39,531 nt of DNA, from NCBI GenBank assembly GCA_017935645.1, contig JAGBHF010000005.1:1-39531 (forward strand), read 5' to 3'. Position 1 is the stretch's first letter. Each line of letters opens with the position of its first letter. The translations under genes were made by a program, and so were the position numbers. This document shows positions 27,980-34,336 of the stretch, one piece after another. Origin of the DNA: Bacteroidaceae bacterium (GTDB lineage Bacteria > Bacteroidota > Bacteroidia > Bacteroidales > Barnesiellaceae_A). Under the pieces are notes generated by a model. It saw nothing but the letters and a program-made list of their open reading frames with translations. It had not been told where the DNA came from and did not search any database.

Positions 27980-28016
27980 AACGATATGCGCCATCGCGGT
28001 GCATATCGTTTTTTTT
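27980..28016 (+). terminator. Intrinsic terminator after pgi
   Basis: The stem AACGATATGC (27980-27989) plus GCC pairs with GGT plus GCATATCGTT (to 28010), followed by a run of T. It ends the lysS-gpsA-pgi operon. Confidence 0.92.
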
Positions 28017-29252: not shown

Positions 29253-31775
29253 TCAGTTGAGTACCTCGATAAGCTTTACATCGTATATAAGTGTAGCGTG
29301 TGCCGGCACATCTGCAACAGCCTTATTACCGTAACCCAAATTGGCAGGCACATACAGGATGTAATTAGCACCCTCCTTCATCTGTAGTAAGCCCTCGGCA
29401 AAACCTTTTATCACCTTATTCAAGTTAAACTGAATAGGCTCGGTGCTTCGGTCCAATTGAGTTCCATCGGGCAACGTGCAGGAATAGGTACACAATATAT
29501 CACTGTTGGCATGCGGTTTGTTACCCTTACCTTTCTTCACGACTTCATACTGAAGTCCGCTGGCAAGGATTTTCACATCATCACGTTTGGCATTCTCAAT
29601 CAAGAAAGCCTCACCATCGCTCATGGTTATATACTTGCTGCTTACCCAAGCCTCATTGCCATAGTAGTCGATGCGGGCATATCCATTTTTTATTTCATAT
29701 ACCTCAACCTCTTCGTTATACTGCAATCCGCCCAATTGCGCTGCCGATGAAGAGGGAGCCTGACGTACTATTACGCCCGACTGCGCTGTACAATAGTAGG
29801 TTGATGTAGGCAAGGTCACCACCTGCTCGATAACAGGTTCGTCGCTATCATTGCGGGCAAATATTCCTCGTGCCACACCTCCCACAAGGGCTGCTATCGA
29901 CGGGCCAAAGAGAAGAATTAGCGCAATAAGGAAAGTCCAAGCATTCTTAAATACCAGGCTTAAAACAAAAGTAATAATAGGCAGTACATAGCTTAATACA
30001 ACCGTAAGAAGAGCCACTATTACAAAGCCTACAAATCCGGCAATAAGTGCCGCAATGAAGCCATCGTCTATCCACGTTCCTATAACGGCAATACCCAATA
30101 ATACATATAGTAATACAGTAACTATAGCACTCAATCGGTCGTCGTTATCATCAATCCATATACCTATAGACTCAATCTTATCATTGAATCGCGACCACAA
30201 CGAGTCGCCCGAGCTTCTGCGGCGATGAGGAGTGTTGTGTGTCTTCTTGGGTCCCCAACCACTACCCGAGCCTATCTTAACATTGGCTGTATAGAGTACT
30301 TTACCCTCACAGCTAAAGGTTACTTTCACCGTCTCATTCTCAGTCCAAAAGGTACAATCGTTACGACCCCAACCCGACAAGTCGTATTCGCCGGGACCTT
30401 GGATGCTTATCTCGCATGATGTACGATCGGCATCTTTATTCTTATACTCAAAGGTCATATCAATAGTAACTGCACCGCGGAAGTTATTCGACACCACAAT
30501 ACGAGGCTTCAAGTAGGGGATGCCGGTAGGAATGGGCGAGCCAAACTTCACTTTGATATTACCGTCGTAATCAACTGCACCAAACTTGACAGTCGATATT
30601 TCGGGCAAGCGCGGGCTGTTACCGTCGCGACCTATGGTCACACGACCCTGCCACAACTTCTTACCCTTGCACTTGAAGGTATACTCGACGTAGCCGTATG
30701 AAGCATACGATGTACCACTCTTGCTACCCCATCCCGACAATGTATAATCGCCCTTACCACTGAATGTTACTTCGGTATCATAGTTGTAAGTTTTGCCATC
30801 GGGATACTTCAGGAAAATCTCGATTGTCTCAGTACCATAGTATTCGCTCGACACCGACAGGCGAGGCACTATATACTGCGTATTGGTAAAGAGCACCCTA
30901 CCAAAGTCCTTGATAATCTTATTCTCGTAAGTTGCATCGGCAAACAACACATCGCGTATAATCAACTCACTATCTCTACGCGGCGATTGAGGTATCCGTT
31001 TCTTTTTCTTTTCAGGCTCGGGAAATTCGCGACGAGGTGGCTTGTTGTTTTGATAATACTCGGCAAGAGCCTTCTTATAGATATCAAAGTTCTTCTTATC
31101 CTCATACATCTTACGCGCTACCGCACATAGGTTCTTGCTATGCTCAATAATTTCGCGATTGTTTGAGTGTAGCTTGTGCGAATTGACCAGCACCTTGACC
31201 ATCTCGGCAGCCTCCTCCTTCATCGTAGGTTGGAAAGAAGGACGTCGCCACATATCGCTCAACAATTCAATAGCTGTAATCTCGGCTGTATCGAGTTGAG
31301 GAGTGATTTCCTCACTCTTGAGGAACTGCAATGAACGCGACCACTTCTGCACATTGGTTATTATCAGAGCCTCGTCATGTTGAGGAGTAGAGTCGGGAGT
31401 AGGTGTAGGTACAGGGGCCTTCTTGGGCTCGGGGATAGGAGCTTTCTTAGTACTCGGGGTCCAACCCAACTCTCGGCGAAACTCGTCAAACGACGCTGCA
31501 TCTTTGGTATAAAACGTTTGGGCAATACCACGCAGGGTCTTGCTCTTTTCGATAATCTCTCGATTATTTGAGTGCAATTTATCGCAATGCTTGAGTAGGT
31601 CTATACGCTTTTGGCACGCATCCTTGTCAAATTCTTTGTCACGCCAGAAGTTGACAAGAAACACAATAGCCTCCTTCTCCTCTTTATCGAGCAGCTTAAC
31701 AATGTCGGGCGCAGCAAAGAAATTGCAAGCCTTCTCCCACTCGGCAACTTTCTGCTTTAGAAGTGTCTTATCCAT
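29253..31775 (-). CDS. Multidomain membrane protein: two helical repeats, two beta repeats, TM region, SH3-like and FKBP domains
   Basis: 840 residues, no signal peptide. Residues 1-105 and about 141-242 are two copies of a helical domain sharing KLHSNNREIIE and SK-L. A Pro-rich linker lies between them. Residues 270-382 and 392-502 are two beta-sandwich-like repeats sharing GxYxLSGWG. A hydrophobic block (about 548-638) has three or four membrane segments. Residues about 659-718 resemble a bacterial SH3 domain (VIVRQAPSSSAAQLG ... EAWVSSKYI). Residues 740-840 are an FKBP prolyl isomerase (GLQYEVVKKGKG ... FAEGLLQMKEGANYILYVP ... GYG). With an odd number of membrane segments the SH3 and FKBP parts would be periplasmic. 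It sits downstream of GrpE-like and Hsp70-like genes, which suggests a chaperone role at the membrane. I know no named family with this order. Confidence 0.85.
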   Translation of the reverse strand: MDKTLLKQKVAEWEKACNFFAAPDIVKLLDKEEKEAIVFLVNFWRDKEFDKDACQKRIDLLKHCDKLHSNNREIIEKSKTLRGIAQTFYTKDAASFDEFRRELGWTPSTKKAPIPEPKKAPVPTPTPDSTPQHDEALIITNVQKWSRSLQFLKSEEITPQLDTAEITAIELLSDMWRRPSFQPTMKEEAAEMVKVLVNSHKLHSNNREIIEHSKNLCAVARKMYEDKKNFDIYKKALAEYYQNNKPPRREFPEPEKKKKRIPQSPRRDSELIIRDVLFADATYENKIIKDFGRVLFTNTQYIVPRLSVSSEYYGTETIEIFLKYPDGKTYNYDTEVTFSGKGDYTLSGWGSKSGTSYASYGYVEYTFKCKGKKLWQGRVTIGRDGNSPRLPEISTVKFGAVDYDGNIKVKFGSPIPTGIPYLKPRIVVSNNFRGAVTIDMTFEYKNKDADRTSCEISIQGPGEYDLSGWGRNDCTFWTENETVKVTFSCEGKVLYTANVKIGSGSGWGPKKTHNTPHRRRSSGDSLWSRFNDKIESIGIWIDDNDDRLSAIVTVLLYVLLGIAVIGTWIDDGFIAALIAGFVGFVIVALLTVVLSYVLPIITFVLSLVFKNAWTFLIALILLFGPSIAALVGGVARGIFARNDSDEPVIEQVVTLPTSTYYCTAQSGVIVRQAPSSSAAQLGGLQYNEEVEVYEIKNGYARIDYYGNEAWVSSKYITMSDGEAFLIENAKRDDVKILASGLQYEVVKKGKGNKPHANSDILCTYSCTLPDGTQLDRSTEPIQFNLNKVIKGFAEGLLQMKEGANYILYVPANLGYGNKAVADVPAHATLIYDVKLIEVLN

Positions 31776-31786
31776 CTATATATATT

Positions 31787-31820
31787 CAAAAACAAGGTTG
31801 TGTCACGAGTGACACAACCT
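31787..31820 (-). terminator. Terminator between Hsp70-like gene and 840-residue gene
   Basis: An 11-bp stem AGGTTGTGTCA (31795-31805), loop CGAG, TGACACAACCT (31810-31820). On the minus strand it is followed by TGTTTTTG, a U-rich tail. The downstream gene starts just 12 bases beyond, with no promoter visible, so it probably depends on read-through at a lower level. Confidence 0.75.
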
Positions 31821-31843
31821 CTATGGGTAGGATATACAATTAC

Positions 31844-33436
31844 TTATTCTACAGTGGCGTTTGCGATGAAGTTTTGAGACTTTCTCAACTCATCTTCACT
31901 CTTCACACCGGCCACCTTCAATTGGAAGTCGATTACGTCGCTATCGCGAGTAGCATTGACGCTGAGGATACCCTCTTCGCTAATACTGAATGTAACCTTA
32001 ATCTCAGTACCTTTGGGGTGATTACCTGTAAGTTTCAACTCCGATATATCTTCAGTAGCCAAGTTACAGAAGCGGTCTTCAACGGTTTGGTCTTTCTCCT
32101 CATCGGTAAAGTCGCTCTCATAGATAGGCAATGTAACACCGGTTTGACCATCGCGAACAGTCTCGAATACACGAGTACGCGATACGGGCAGTGTGGTGTT
32201 GGCAAAAATCATATTACCTACTTGGTTATCGATAAGACCAAGACCATAAGTCTTACTTGTTACATTGACAATGCGAGTGCGCTTGGTCATGAGAGGCTCG
32301 GGCGCTTTAGTACCCTCTTCCTCCGATTTCTTCAATGCGGCATCATAAGCCTCATTCATGGCAAAGATAGCAGCACCCTTAGCCACGCACTCATCGGGGT
32401 CGGTAATGTGAGTAGGCAAGCCAAACTCAGCCTCTACGCGCTCCTTGATTTGAGGCATCTTACTACTACCACCAACAAGAATAATCTCATCGATTTTCTT
32501 GTAGCCCTTCTCCTCGGCCTTCTCTATAATCTTACGTGTAGCATCGATGGTCTCATTCAAGCGGTCCTCGGTAATGGCATTGAATGTCTCACGAGGAAGT
32601 TCAAAGTTAACCGACTTGCCTTCGTATGAGAAGTTAATCTTAACTTTTTGCTTGGCGGTAAGGTTTTTCTTCCAGTTCTCGGCATTGAGCAACAACTCAT
32701 ATCGAGCATTGGGAGCGAGTGAATCAAATTCGTATGAAGTGCCATTTTGAGAGTTGAATGTGTTAAGCACATATTTAGCCAACTCAGTATCCCAGTCGAC
32801 ACCACCCAAGTGGTGGTCACCACCGGTAGCAACAACCTTGATAGCACCACCGTTAACGGCAATAATGGTAACGTCGAATGTACCACCACCGAGGTCATAT
32901 ACAAGAATAGTACGACGCTCGTCAACCTTCATTCCGTATGAAATAGCAGCTGCTGTAGGCTCGTTGATAATAGCCAACACATTAAGACCGGCACTGATAC
33001 CGGCTTGCTTGGTTTGCAAACGCTCTTTGTTACCGAAATATGCGGGACAAGTAATAACTACGTCGGTAATAGGCTCGGGGTTGTCGCCCAAGTTATTGGC
33101 ATCTTGCACAAGTTTCTTAAGAATAAGCGCCGAAATCTCAACAGGGTCGAGGTGCATGGGGGTTGTATTCTTGGTCTTGTCGAAAGCCTCATCATTACCT
33201 ATCTCGCGTTTGATAAACGCTACAGTCTTTTCAGGCTCTACTGCCAATTGGTTCTTAGCCTCTTTACCTACAATCATGTTACTTTCCGACTCGATGTACA
33301 CTACCGAAGGGGTAGTAGCATCGCCCTCAAAGTTGCGAAGTACCACTGCTTGGTCATATCGGTCTACTTGTGCGATACAACTAAATGTTGTACCCAAGTC
33401 AATGCCATATACGGCTCTACTTTTATCGTTTGCCAT
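31844..33436 (-). CDS. Hsp70 (DnaK-like) chaperone without the C-terminal lid
   Basis: 530 residues, against about 640 for DnaK. The ATPase domain is intact: GIDLGTTFSCIAQVD (phosphate 1), INEPTAAAISYG (connect 1), VYDLGGGTFDVTI (phosphate 2) and ILVGGSSKMPQI (adenosine). A beta substrate-binding domain follows: NTTLPVSRTRVFETVRDGQ, then GNHPKGTEIKVTFSISEEG. The protein stops soon after, at FIANATVE, so the helical lid that closes DnaK over its client, and the acidic tail, are absent. The stop is natural, with a terminator after it. The gene follows a GrpE-like gene by 23 bases; no J-domain protein is nearby. Clients may be held loosely, or it may act as a regulator instead of a folding machine. 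Confidence 0.92.
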   Translation of the reverse strand: MANDKSRAVYGIDLGTTFSCIAQVDRYDQAVVLRNFEGDATTPSVVYIESESNMIVGKEAKNQLAVEPEKTVAFIKREIGNDEAFDKTKNTTPMHLDPVEISALILKKLVQDANNLGDNPEPITDVVITCPAYFGNKERLQTKQAGISAGLNVLAIINEPTAAAISYGMKVDERRTILVYDLGGGTFDVTIIAVNGGAIKVVATGGDHHLGGVDWDTELAKYVLNTFNSQNGTSYEFDSLAPNARYELLLNAENWKKNLTAKQKVKINFSYEGKSVNFELPRETFNAITEDRLNETIDATRKIIEKAEEKGYKKIDEIILVGGSSKMPQIKERVEAEFGLPTHITDPDECVAKGAAIFAMNEAYDAALKKSEEEGTKAPEPLMTKRTRIVNVTSKTYGLGLIDNQVGNMIFANTTLPVSRTRVFETVRDGQTGVTLPIYESDFTDEEKDQTVEDRFCNLATEDISELKLTGNHPKGTEIKVTFSISEEGILSVNATRDSDVIDFQLKVAGVKSEDELRKSQNFIANATVE

Positions 33437-33459
33437 AGTTTTATATATATTTTATTTGT

Positions 33460-34272
33460 TTACTCTTGTGTTTCAGTTTTAGGGGCTTCTTCAGTGTATT
33501 TATACACTTTTACTCGGGCATAACGCACTACCTTTTCAGTGTCGACATTGACAAAGCCACCACATATCAATTTTGCAATCTTGCCATTCAGTTCGGGATT
33601 GGTTGTTTCTACCGAGTCACCTTGAAGTTGTTGATGCAACTTACGATTAAACTCCTCGCCAACCTCAGGCTCGTAGTACTCAACACCGAAGTCATTATAT
33701 GCACGATCACTCAAGGCCATAATGGCACTCTTAAACTCTTTCATAAGATTACCATACAACTCCTCCCAGTTACACTCGGCATTGTCAAGTTGGTCAAAGT
33801 GCGTATAGGTATTATTAAATCGACTGTGCAAGTCAAGCAAGGCCTTCAAATAGGGCTGGGTTATCTTCACAAAGAAGTCACCTTTATATTGCTCCAACTC
33901 CTTGTGCATGGCACGCATGTTCTCATCTTGTCTTTCACGAAATCCGAGCAATACTTTATACTCGTCCATCAAAGCCTTTTGAGCAACAGCCTGTTCCTTT
34001 AGCTCGTTGAGCGTTGCATTGAGGGTCTCAAATGCAGGAGCATAATCAACGCCCTGTGTACACACAGGTGTTTCCTCGGCAGGCACAATGGGTGTAGGTG
34101 TAGTATTTTCTTCAGTACTACTCATGCCTTCTATCACTTTCTTCAGACGTTCTATCTCGGCATCCTTTGCTTTATTTTCATCTTCAAGCATAGCATATTC
34201 CGATTTCAAACGCTCAATCGTTTGCTCAAAGCTCTTCAACTCGTGCTCGTTATTATTTCCAAATAAGCCCAT
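33460..34272 (-). CDS. GrpE-like nucleotide-exchange factor with long coiled coil (divergent)
   Basis: 270 residues. Residues about 8-48 form a heptad-rich coiled coil (ELKSFEQTIERLKSEYAMLE). A Thr/Pro-rich linker (about 51-72) follows, then a second long helical stretch (about 75-135). The C-terminal third resembles the GrpE beta domain: FGVEYYEPEVGEEFNRKLHQ, then KIAKLICGGFVNVD and ARVKVYKY, in the same order as GrpE's GVExIxxxGxxFDPxxH and GY...RxAxVxV. It is longer than GrpE (about 190). Its place directly before an Hsp70 gene supports a role as that chaperone's exchange factor. It is probably not the housekeeping grpE, which normally accompanies dnaJ. Confidence 0.72.
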   Translation of the reverse strand: MGLFGNNNEHELKSFEQTIERLKSEYAMLEDENKAKDAEIERLKKVIEGMSSTEENTTPTPIVPAEETPVCTQGVDYAPAFETLNATLNELKEQAVAQKALMDEYKVLLGFRERQDENMRAMHKELEQYKGDFFVKITQPYLKALLDLHSRFNNTYTHFDQLDNAECNWEELYGNLMKEFKSAIMALSDRAYNDFGVEYYEPEVGEEFNRKLHQQLQGDSVETTNPELNGKIAKLICGGFVNVDTEKVVRYARVKVYKYTEEAPKTETQE

Positions 34273-34305
34273 GATAAAATTGATTATATAAGGTTATATC
34301 TCTCG

Positions 34306-34336
34306 CAAATATATACATATAAATATAAATACGCAA
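34306..34336 (-). promoter_or_regulatory. Promoter of the GrpE-like/Hsp70-like operon
   Basis: On the minus strand, TTG (34334-34336), 20 bases, TATATTTG (34306-34313). It is a full consensus match about 35 bases before ATG 34272. No CIRCE-like heat-shock repeat is seen. Confidence 0.7.

Follow-up and report, generated by a model that had tools for sequence, protein, structure and literature searches.

Three genes and their signals

The window, i.e. the whole stretch of 39,531 nucleotides considered here, contains three co-directional genes encoding a GrpE-like protein, an Hsp70 without the helical lid and a membrane protein (Table 1). The ORF check gave the same coordinates, order and minus strand as described in an earlier note on this DNA, and its family calls were matched by Pfam (PF01025, PF00012 and FKBP_C).

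Table 1. Features of the locus and domains of the membrane protein
Feature	Coordinates	Strand	Residues	Details
Promoter, Bacteroidetes-type	34336..34306	-		TTG, 20 nt, TATATTTG; consensus match only
GrpE-like gene	34272..33460	-		270 aa, first of three ORFs
Lidless Hsp70 gene	33436..31844	-		530 aa, second
Terminator-like hairpin	31821..31794	-		perfect stem, GAGGTTGTGTC-N(4-10)-GACACAACCTC, then T5
Membrane protein gene	31775..29253	-		840 aa, third
Helical repeat 1	31461..31775	-	1-105	helix bundle, pLDDT mostly 83-94
Helical repeat 2	31041..31388	-	130-245	basis as for repeat 1
Two tandem beta-strand domains	30267..30974	-	268-503	strands in model
Transmembrane block	29880..30131	-	549-632	three predicted TM helices; hydropathy and charge
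SH3_3 domain	29628..29786	-	664-716	PF08239, E 4e-13
FKBP domain, Mip/FkpA type	29256..29624	-	718-840	PF00254, E 1.6e-17

The promoter lies 5' of the GrpE-like gene, the first in order, and its form (TTG, about 20 nt, TAnnTTTG) also precedes the orthologous genes of L004 and L005; in L006 and L009 the promoter element is TACTTTTG. This element and the spacing of 23 nt between the GrpE-like and Hsp70 genes are in line with the single consensus promoter proposed earlier for the first two genes. Read-through into the third gene, also proposed there, is a fair description of the 68-nt gap that follows the Hsp70 gene and contains the hairpin. The hairpin is kept in all eight trio-bearing species of the genus (with the T tail cut in L018); its stem is conserved and its loop varies in length between species. 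The trio locus of L008 has no hairpin. Elsewhere in the host genome the palindrome has one further copy, at the 3' end of another gene, and Rfam contains no family for it. A protein-binding operator is less likely, given the variable loop and the T-run after the stem. In part, the hairpin sets the membrane gene apart from the first two and counts against reading the trio as one machine.

The neighbours in the window include the housekeeping genes gpsA, pgi, an Mrp/ApbC-type ATPase gene and ribH, and no GAP1-N2 GTPase was found among nine neighbour proteins (Pfam, E ≤ 0.001). PADLOC gave no convincing match for any of the three proteins, and the trio was dropped as a candidate defence system on this ground.

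Of the 9 species sampled from the genus, 8 have the trio with its gene order unchanged, and so does one further genome (L008), where it is flanked by different genes. Scattered relatives, the outcome fixed beforehand as speaking against a dedicated gene set, did not occur, and the co-conservation bears out the dedicated set of the earlier note. One member of the genus (G007) has no trio, which we count against the reading preferred below. The wider distribution is patchy: three of 296 genomes of the phylum, including the host, and two genomes from outside the genus in the sample of the order. The hsp70 gene is under strong purifying selection (dN/dS 0.01–0.09) and the grpE-like gene under constraint (about 0.09); the membrane gene (mostly 0.11–0.13) evolves faster than hsp70.

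The GrpE-like protein and the lidless Hsp70

The GrpE-like protein consists of an N-terminal coiled coil, the GrpE core and a beta-wing. It belongs to the GrpE family by its PF01025 match (E 1.9e-10, 41.1 bits against a gathering cut-off of 25.8) and by the conserved wing motif ..GGF....(V/L)R.AR(V/I)..YK, whose LRP form is common to the GrpE-like proteins at other lidless-Hsp70 loci. Among PDB entries the best hit is GrpE (3a6m, E 2e-4).

The Hsp70 matches PF00012 above the cut-off (E 7.9e-105). The match stops at profile position 500 of 599 and therefore the lid is missing, as noted earlier; the protein, composed of the NBD, the linker and SBDbeta, ends at helix A. The actin-like ATPase motifs of the NBD and SBDbeta assign it to the Hsp70 superfamily, and K70, P143, R151, E171 and T199 (DnaK numbering) are retained. 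Two features of the DnaK subfamily are absent, namely the helical lid (SBDalpha) and the J-contact residues R167 and D393, which are A or G and N, respectively, in all nine sequences of the window clade. The window protein carries R167->A, D393->N and L390->R, and R167, D393, L390 and D326 are all changed in the aligned Hsp70s of the clade. The TIGR02350 score is 330.7 bits against a cut-off of 822.55. Both deletions of the HscC type are present, that of NBD residues 76–101 and that of the GrpE-signature loop (DnaK 290–295). With this loop gone, the contact with GrpE must be either remodelled or absent.

In DnaK, R167 bonds residue D35 of the HPD motif (PMC8215388), and the R167A mutant is non-functional unless DnaJ has D35N (PMC13012618). 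The window Hsp70 does not have the usual contact points for a J protein and therefore probably uses a different kind of helper. Judged from these residues, the absence of a J protein runs deeper than the earlier note could see.

On the tree, the protein falls into a clade of lidless Hsp70s (UFBoot/SH-aLRT 97–99/96) lying outside DnaK, HscA and HscC, the last represented by one E. coli sequence on a long branch. The support equals 98/96 with HscA, HscC and G496 removed. The tree row dnaK_L075 was mislabelled and duplicated the lidless G496 sequence; both were removed and the result was unchanged. The clade is monophyletic, and its lid loss and an insert before the interdomain linker are found in the window protein. 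Tree position and the missing lid exclude it from HscC. The Bacteroidales Hsp70s of about 830 aa were rejected as relatives, as they form a separate branch and lie in separate clusters.

The clade extends to distant Bacteroidota and a Rhodococcus plasmid, its members outside the genus being few (G739, G560, G496, G020, G180 and Rhodococcus). Plasmid and phage searches with the window Hsp70 yielded mostly ordinary DnaK; the search with the G020 Hsp70 yielded one lidless relative, that on the Rhodococcus plasmid, which also carries recombinase, TniB/TniQ and FtsK-type genes. GrpE is present at four of the six lidless-Hsp70 loci outside the genus. A J-like protein without the HPD motif adjoins the lidless Hsp70 in L099, L097 and L146; in L100 and L096 the neighbouring adaptor is too diverged to be called J-like. 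Adaptors of the relatives contain TPR, Ig-like or FGE domains, often with TM segments. Several lidless Hsp70s with HPD-less partners (G020, G180, Rhodococcus) retain R167 and D393, and therefore these residues are not closely tied to HPD. The clade, with an HPD-less J-like third gene in several of its members, is new relative to the earlier note.

The membrane protein and the J-protein question

The AlphaFold2 model of the membrane protein has a mean pLDDT of 73. Its two helical repeats are homologous (hhalign 99.4%), and the motif H..NR.IIE.SK is invariant in the first apart from E/D at one position. Its H, N and R are H68, N71 and R72 in repeat 1 and H203, N206 and R207 in repeat 2. The fold of this module had no convincing match (best Foldseek E 1.5; best VIA Z 8.1, which for helical bundles counts as noise). 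The tandem repeat of the beta-domains is visible by tblastn of the protein against its own locus; they had no Pfam or PDB sequence match. The FKBP fold is matched by LpMip (1fd9, VIA Z 21, rmsd 1.4 over 123 residues).

In seven orthologues loop 1 of the TM block is acidic, loop 2 basic or uncharged and the C-terminal flank mainly acidic. Prediction supports three TM helices with the N-terminus in and the C-terminus out, the SH3 and FKBP domains being periplasmic. The membrane tether suggested earlier fits this topology, the contact with the Hsp70 being putative. Folding of clients across the membrane, also suggested there, found no support, and neither did a contact between the GrpE-like protein and this Hsp70. 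The window sequence may alternatively have four TM helices and a cytoplasmic FKBP domain, a point against the preferred reading. The orthologue in L008, at the same position in its trio as the others, has no FKBP domain, and a central role of FKBP is not supported; in L009 an AhpC/TSA-thioredoxin domain follows FKBP. In these sequences FKBP is a variable accessory and no constant part of the system.

J-domain proteins count as partners that an Hsp70 cannot do without. Pfam detected no J domain in any of the three proteins at E ≤ 1; on this point the earlier note was right. When the helical repeats were aligned with J domains, profile against profile, hhalign gave probabilities of 0.1–0.5%, and on this comparison they were rejected as degenerate J domains. 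There was no J domain among the fold-search matches listed for the helical module, which by itself does not exclude a J fold. In the window genus the J-like slot is held by a protein with two four-helix repeats, unrelated to J by profile comparison. The host genome encodes one ordinary DnaK and one GrpE–DnaJ pair, this DnaJ being its only J-domain protein by Pfam.

Interpretation and comparison with known systems

We give an even chance to reading the trio as an Hsp70 machine of its own, tethered to the membrane, with a non-J adaptor in the place of the J protein. In its favour are the co-conservation of the trio, the selection on its genes, the lidless clade with its HPD-less or strongly diverged adaptors, the changed R167 and D393, the profile comparison of the helical repeats and the charge pattern of the TM block. 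Besides the points against it named above, the deleted GrpE-signature loop, the small number of lidless relatives outside the genus and the R167 and D393 kept in several of these weigh against it. The Hsp70, retaining the ATPase and the peptide-binding beta-domain, would pair with its own GrpE-like exchange factor, and the cytoplasmic helical repeats and beta-domains of the membrane protein would anchor it at the inner membrane. The membrane protein would replace the J protein in client recruitment, stimulation of ATP hydrolysis or both, possibly via its duplicated H..NR.IIE.SK motif. Exchangeable folding helpers would sit at its periplasmic end (SH3 and FKBP, these plus thioredoxin, or SH3 alone). 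Likely tasks would be the handling of proteins located at the inner membrane or passing through it, or quality control of membrane proteins. More tentatively, the membrane-tethered Hsp70 may be J-independent, with a non-J cochaperone driving its ATPase cycle; the duplicated four-helix module with its invariant motif would have replaced the J domain at an unchanged gene position, and the HPD-binding residues would have been dropped by co-evolution.

Could the Hsp70 instead be a nucleotide-driven holding or sensing switch, lidless and binding one membrane-proximal partner, within a stress-sensing or conflict set like the Hsp70/GrpE/DnaJ-FNIII or TPR sets found with GAP1-N2 GTPases? We find this unlikely. 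The patchy distribution, in both samples, and the recombinase, TniB/TniQ and FtsK-type genes on the plasmid of the Rhodococcus relative favour it, and Kaur et al. (2020, PMC7159879) describe conflict loci where Hsp70 and GrpE accompany fusions of DnaJ or TPR; the housekeeping neighbours, the PADLOC result, the retained SBDbeta and the steady conservation across the genus speak against it. Slightly less probable is that the Hsp70 still uses the single DnaJ of the cell. The trio would then be an extra chaperone of DnaK type whose client adaptor is a membrane protein, and the changes at R167 and D393 would be tolerated or compensated. The host DnaJ has a normal HPD, and a triple HPD/AAA variant leaves some stimulation in some Hsp70/J systems (PMC13012618), but the HPD–R167 contact is well established, R167, D393, L390 and D326 are all changed in the aligned window-clade sequences and several lidless relatives supply their own J-like partner. 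Least probable, in our view, is a locus of two adjoining units, in which GrpE and Hsp70 form a pair and the SH3-FKBP membrane protein is independent of them, being simply located downstream of a terminator. The hairpin and the faster evolution of the membrane protein would suit such a division; against it, the membrane gene comes next in all trio loci read, including L008 with its different flanks, relatives have a J-like, FGE or Ig adaptor gene after Hsp70, and the helical module occurs in the host genome only among 395 genomes of the phylum.

Beside the ordinary Hsp70 machine, a group of gut bacteria has a second, reduced version with its own GrpE-family factor and a putative membrane partner, and a bacterial membrane-tethered Hsp70 system may be revealed here. 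The loci form a graded natural series, from J with HPD via J-like without HPD to no J. A conserved natural Hsp70 without the lid or J-contact residues raises the question of what else can drive the Hsp70 cycle.

The mitochondrial TIM23 import motor includes mtHsp70, Mge1, Tim44, Pam18 and the HPD-less Pam16. As a works-like analogy only, with no sequence relation of the adaptor claimed, it resembles the trio in a membrane-held Hsp70, a GrpE-type factor and an HPD-less J-like part; unlike the trio, it has a true J domain, given by Pam18. E. coli HscC has the same two deletions as the window Hsp70 and membrane-associated J partners, DjlC and DjlB (PMC8215388). However, it retains the lid, R167 and D393, works with J-domain partners, is thought not to use GrpE and branches outside the lidless clade. 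The GAP1-N2 conflict sets, like the trio, have a dedicated Hsp70 and GrpE beside a beta-domain or TPR adaptor (PMC7159879), whereas no such GTPase was found among the window neighbours and the trio adaptor has no DnaJ domain and shows a membrane SH3-FKBP architecture. MxDnaK2/MXAN_6672 of Myxococcus is likewise a second Hsp70, bicistronic with its own GrpE; unlike the trio Hsp70, it is a DnaK paralogue with J-protein interactions, and the part of the source drawn on here describes no adjoining J gene and no membrane adaptor (PMC11019930). With DnaK/DnaJ/GrpE the trio has in common the ATPase core, SBDbeta and the GrpE-family exchange factor; it differs in having neither lid nor J protein, in the changed J-contact residues and the deleted GrpE-signature loop, in an Hsp70 lying outside the DnaK clade and in the added membrane partner.

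The trio locus and its conservation

The GrpE-like, Hsp70 and membrane-protein genes (further referred to as the trio) form the locus listed below, where the first two are 23 nt apart. The Hsp70 of the trio is a member of the Hsp70 family and its partner is a member of the GrpE family. Surrounding genes of the window encode glycerol-3-phosphate dehydrogenase, phosphoglucose isomerase, an Mrp/ApbC-type ATPase, lumazine synthase, a nitroreductase, and proteins of the M15-peptidase and CotH types.

Positions and assignments of the features of the trio locus in the window
Feature	Coordinates	Strand	Remarks
Bacteroidetes-type promoter	34336..34306	minus	upstream of the GrpE-family gene
GrpE-family gene	34272..33460	minus	Pfam GrpE, E 1.9e-10
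Hsp70 gene	33436..31844	minus	Pfam Hsp70, E 7.9e-105; match runs to position 500 of the 599-position profile
Perfect hairpin followed by a T-run	31821..31794	minus	inside the 68-nt gap between the Hsp70 and membrane-protein genes
Membrane-protein gene	31775..29253	minus	840 residues; Pfam SH3_3 and FKBP_C

The earlier note proposed that the three genes form one chaperone system, and their neighbourhood proved to be co-conserved: of 9 species sampled within the genus, 8 carry all three genes together in unchanged order, and so does a further genome (locus L008) with other flanking genes. Directly 3' of the L008 trio, the disaggregase gene clpB lies on the opposite strand (L008:14956-17550). The trio is absent from one genus member, G007 (genome 99% complete). 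The order sample of 393 genomes includes the window genome, four more trio-bearing members of the genus and G007; in this sample, scores of the GrpE-like profile above 400 bits were confined to the five trio-bearing members, and the next level was 34.7 bits in G180, itself a carrier of a related locus. Hsp70 is the most constrained protein of the trio (identity 84–98%, dN/dS 0.01–0.09), followed by the GrpE-like protein (about 0.09 where computable) and the membrane protein (mostly 0.11–0.13; 0.23 against L008), these ratios being rough because some pairs are near synonymous-site saturation.

The hairpin, GAGGTTGTGTC-N(4-10)-GACACAACCTC-T5, has a variable loop and is retained at the same position in 8 of 8 trio-carrying genus members, with the T-run cut off in L018, the locus of a relative; L008 has a different, GC-rich hairpin. 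Elsewhere in the window genome the palindrome was found in one place only, the 3' end of a different gene. Most simply, the hairpin would be a partial terminator holding the amount of the membrane partner below that of the chaperone. A T-run also accompanies a strong terminator-like hairpin located 3' of the phosphoglucose isomerase gene (window 27980-28010, plus strand).

The window genome encodes one full-length DnaK (contig 53) and an ordinary GrpE-DnaJ pair (contig 45), and this DnaJ retains the HPD motif (..YHPDKW..). A Pfam J-domain search of the genome retrieved none besides this DnaJ. Therefore the trio is an addition to the ordinary chaperones, not a replacement.

The lidless Hsp70 and its relatives

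In DnaK, R167 is bonded by D35 of the HPD motif of the J domain, and L391 is touched by H33 (PMC8215388); the R167A variant of DnaK functions only together with DnaJ D35N (PMC13012618). In the nine window-clade sequences the R167 position is occupied by A (six) or G (three), and the linker reads R-T-R-(I/V)-V-N-V versus D-V-L-L-L-D-V in DnaK, so that D393 is replaced by N and L390 by R. Residues K70, P143, R151, E171 and T199 are kept. Deleted are NBD segment 76–101 and the GrpE-signature loop 290–295. Lacking both the lid and the J-contact residues, this protein is not DnaK. The same two deletions are present in HscC (PMC8215388), which, however, has a lid; this difference and the tree rule out HscC.

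Hsp70s of about 505–560 aa with nearly the same end point were found in genomes G739, G560, G496, G020 and G180 and on a Rhodococcus plasmid. They group with the window sequences in a single clade separate from DnaK, HscA and HscC, with support of 97/96 (NBD), 99/96 (with SBDbeta) and 98/96 (without HscA, HscC and G496); HscC and HscA were represented by one long-branch sequence each. The type is rare, occurring in 3 of 296 genomes of the phylum, the window genome included, and in two genomes outside the genus in the order sample.

A GrpE-family gene adjoins the lidless Hsp70 gene in four relative loci (L096, L097, L100, L146); none was seen beside it in L098 and L099. Five of the six relative loci have an adaptor gene next to Hsp70. 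The adaptors of L097, L099 and L146 begin with a J-like domain (94% probability when compared as a group with genuine J domains; Pfam E values of 2e-6 for L099 and 1e-8 for L146) that lacks HPD and is followed by TPR and TM segments. The J-like start is very weak in the L100 adaptor, which has Ig-like repeats. In L096 two tandem adaptor genes (L096:3513-6563) encode formylglycine-generating-enzyme-like (FGE-sulfatase) domains, and one of the two genes also encodes a TM segment. R167 and D393 are retained in G020, G180, G496 and Rhodococcus (the last taken from its sequence); the two positions read Q/D in G560 and M/E in G739, and the window genus has lost both residues. Thus, in this small sample, the loss is strongest where the J-like domain is unrecognisable.

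On the plasmid of Rhodococcus pseudokoreensis (L146:8001-11207), the genes of the lidless Hsp70, the HPD-less J-like-TPR-TM protein and GrpE are consecutive. An FtsK/SpoIIIE-type gene adjoins them, and genes for a recombinase, TniB and TniQ are close by; a mobile or conflict setting is possible. A separate Bacteroidales family of Hsp70s of about 830 aa (L103:8525-11026, L104:5816-8320, L101:1483-3975) is likewise far from DnaK in the tree. Its L103 and L104 clusters contain a protein with NPYRFLGIYSN or NPFRILGVYSN, J-like by eye and without HPD (no Pfam match for that of L103), and a protein kinase-like gene, fused to AAA in L103.

The membrane protein

The AlphaFold2 model of the membrane protein (7 sequences, mean pLDDT 73) comprises two helical bundles, beta-domains, long membrane helices, an SH3 domain and an FKBP domain; the N-terminal 245 residues modelled separately reached pLDDT 85. 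Homology links the two helical repeats (99.4%), and scattered residues around the motif H..NR.IIE.SK are common to all 14 repeat copies. By profile comparison (0.1–0.5%) the repeats are not J domains, and comparison of the helical module with solved folds gave no convincing match. The trio has no recognisable J domain.

The hydropathy and charge pattern points to three TM helices and an N-terminus on the inner side: loop 1 is acidic, any charges in loop 2 are basic, and acidic residues predominate in the C-terminal flank. The predicted topology may include a fourth helix in the very hydrophobic loop 2 of the window sequence. The C-terminal part varies from SH3 only (L008) through SH3 and FKBP (most loci); in the orthologue from L009, another relative (L009:12505-15438), an AhpC/TSA-thioredoxin domain (WCGPC) follows FKBP. 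The FKBP domain resembles the Mip/FkpA type (Z 21).

Proposed working and known systems

The membrane protein would bind Hsp70 via its cytoplasmic helical repeats and deliver clients to it, substituting for a J protein; the GrpE-like protein would reset Hsp70, and the periplasmic end could provide these clients, or others nearby, with exchangeable folding domains. We consider the chances of this mechanism as a whole to be evenly balanced. That the trio is a dedicated system is the more probable claim, and stimulation of hydrolysis by the helical module is a less probable one than the whole.

Searches of the open-access literature yielded no account of lidless Hsp70s whose J partner is absent or lacks HPD. 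The nearest published descriptions found are Hsp70, GrpE and DnaJ/TPR sets of conflict loci (PMC7159879) and grpE-mxdnaK2 (PMC11019930). The trio may operate somewhat like a membrane-tethered Hsp70 motor, by way of functional analogy.
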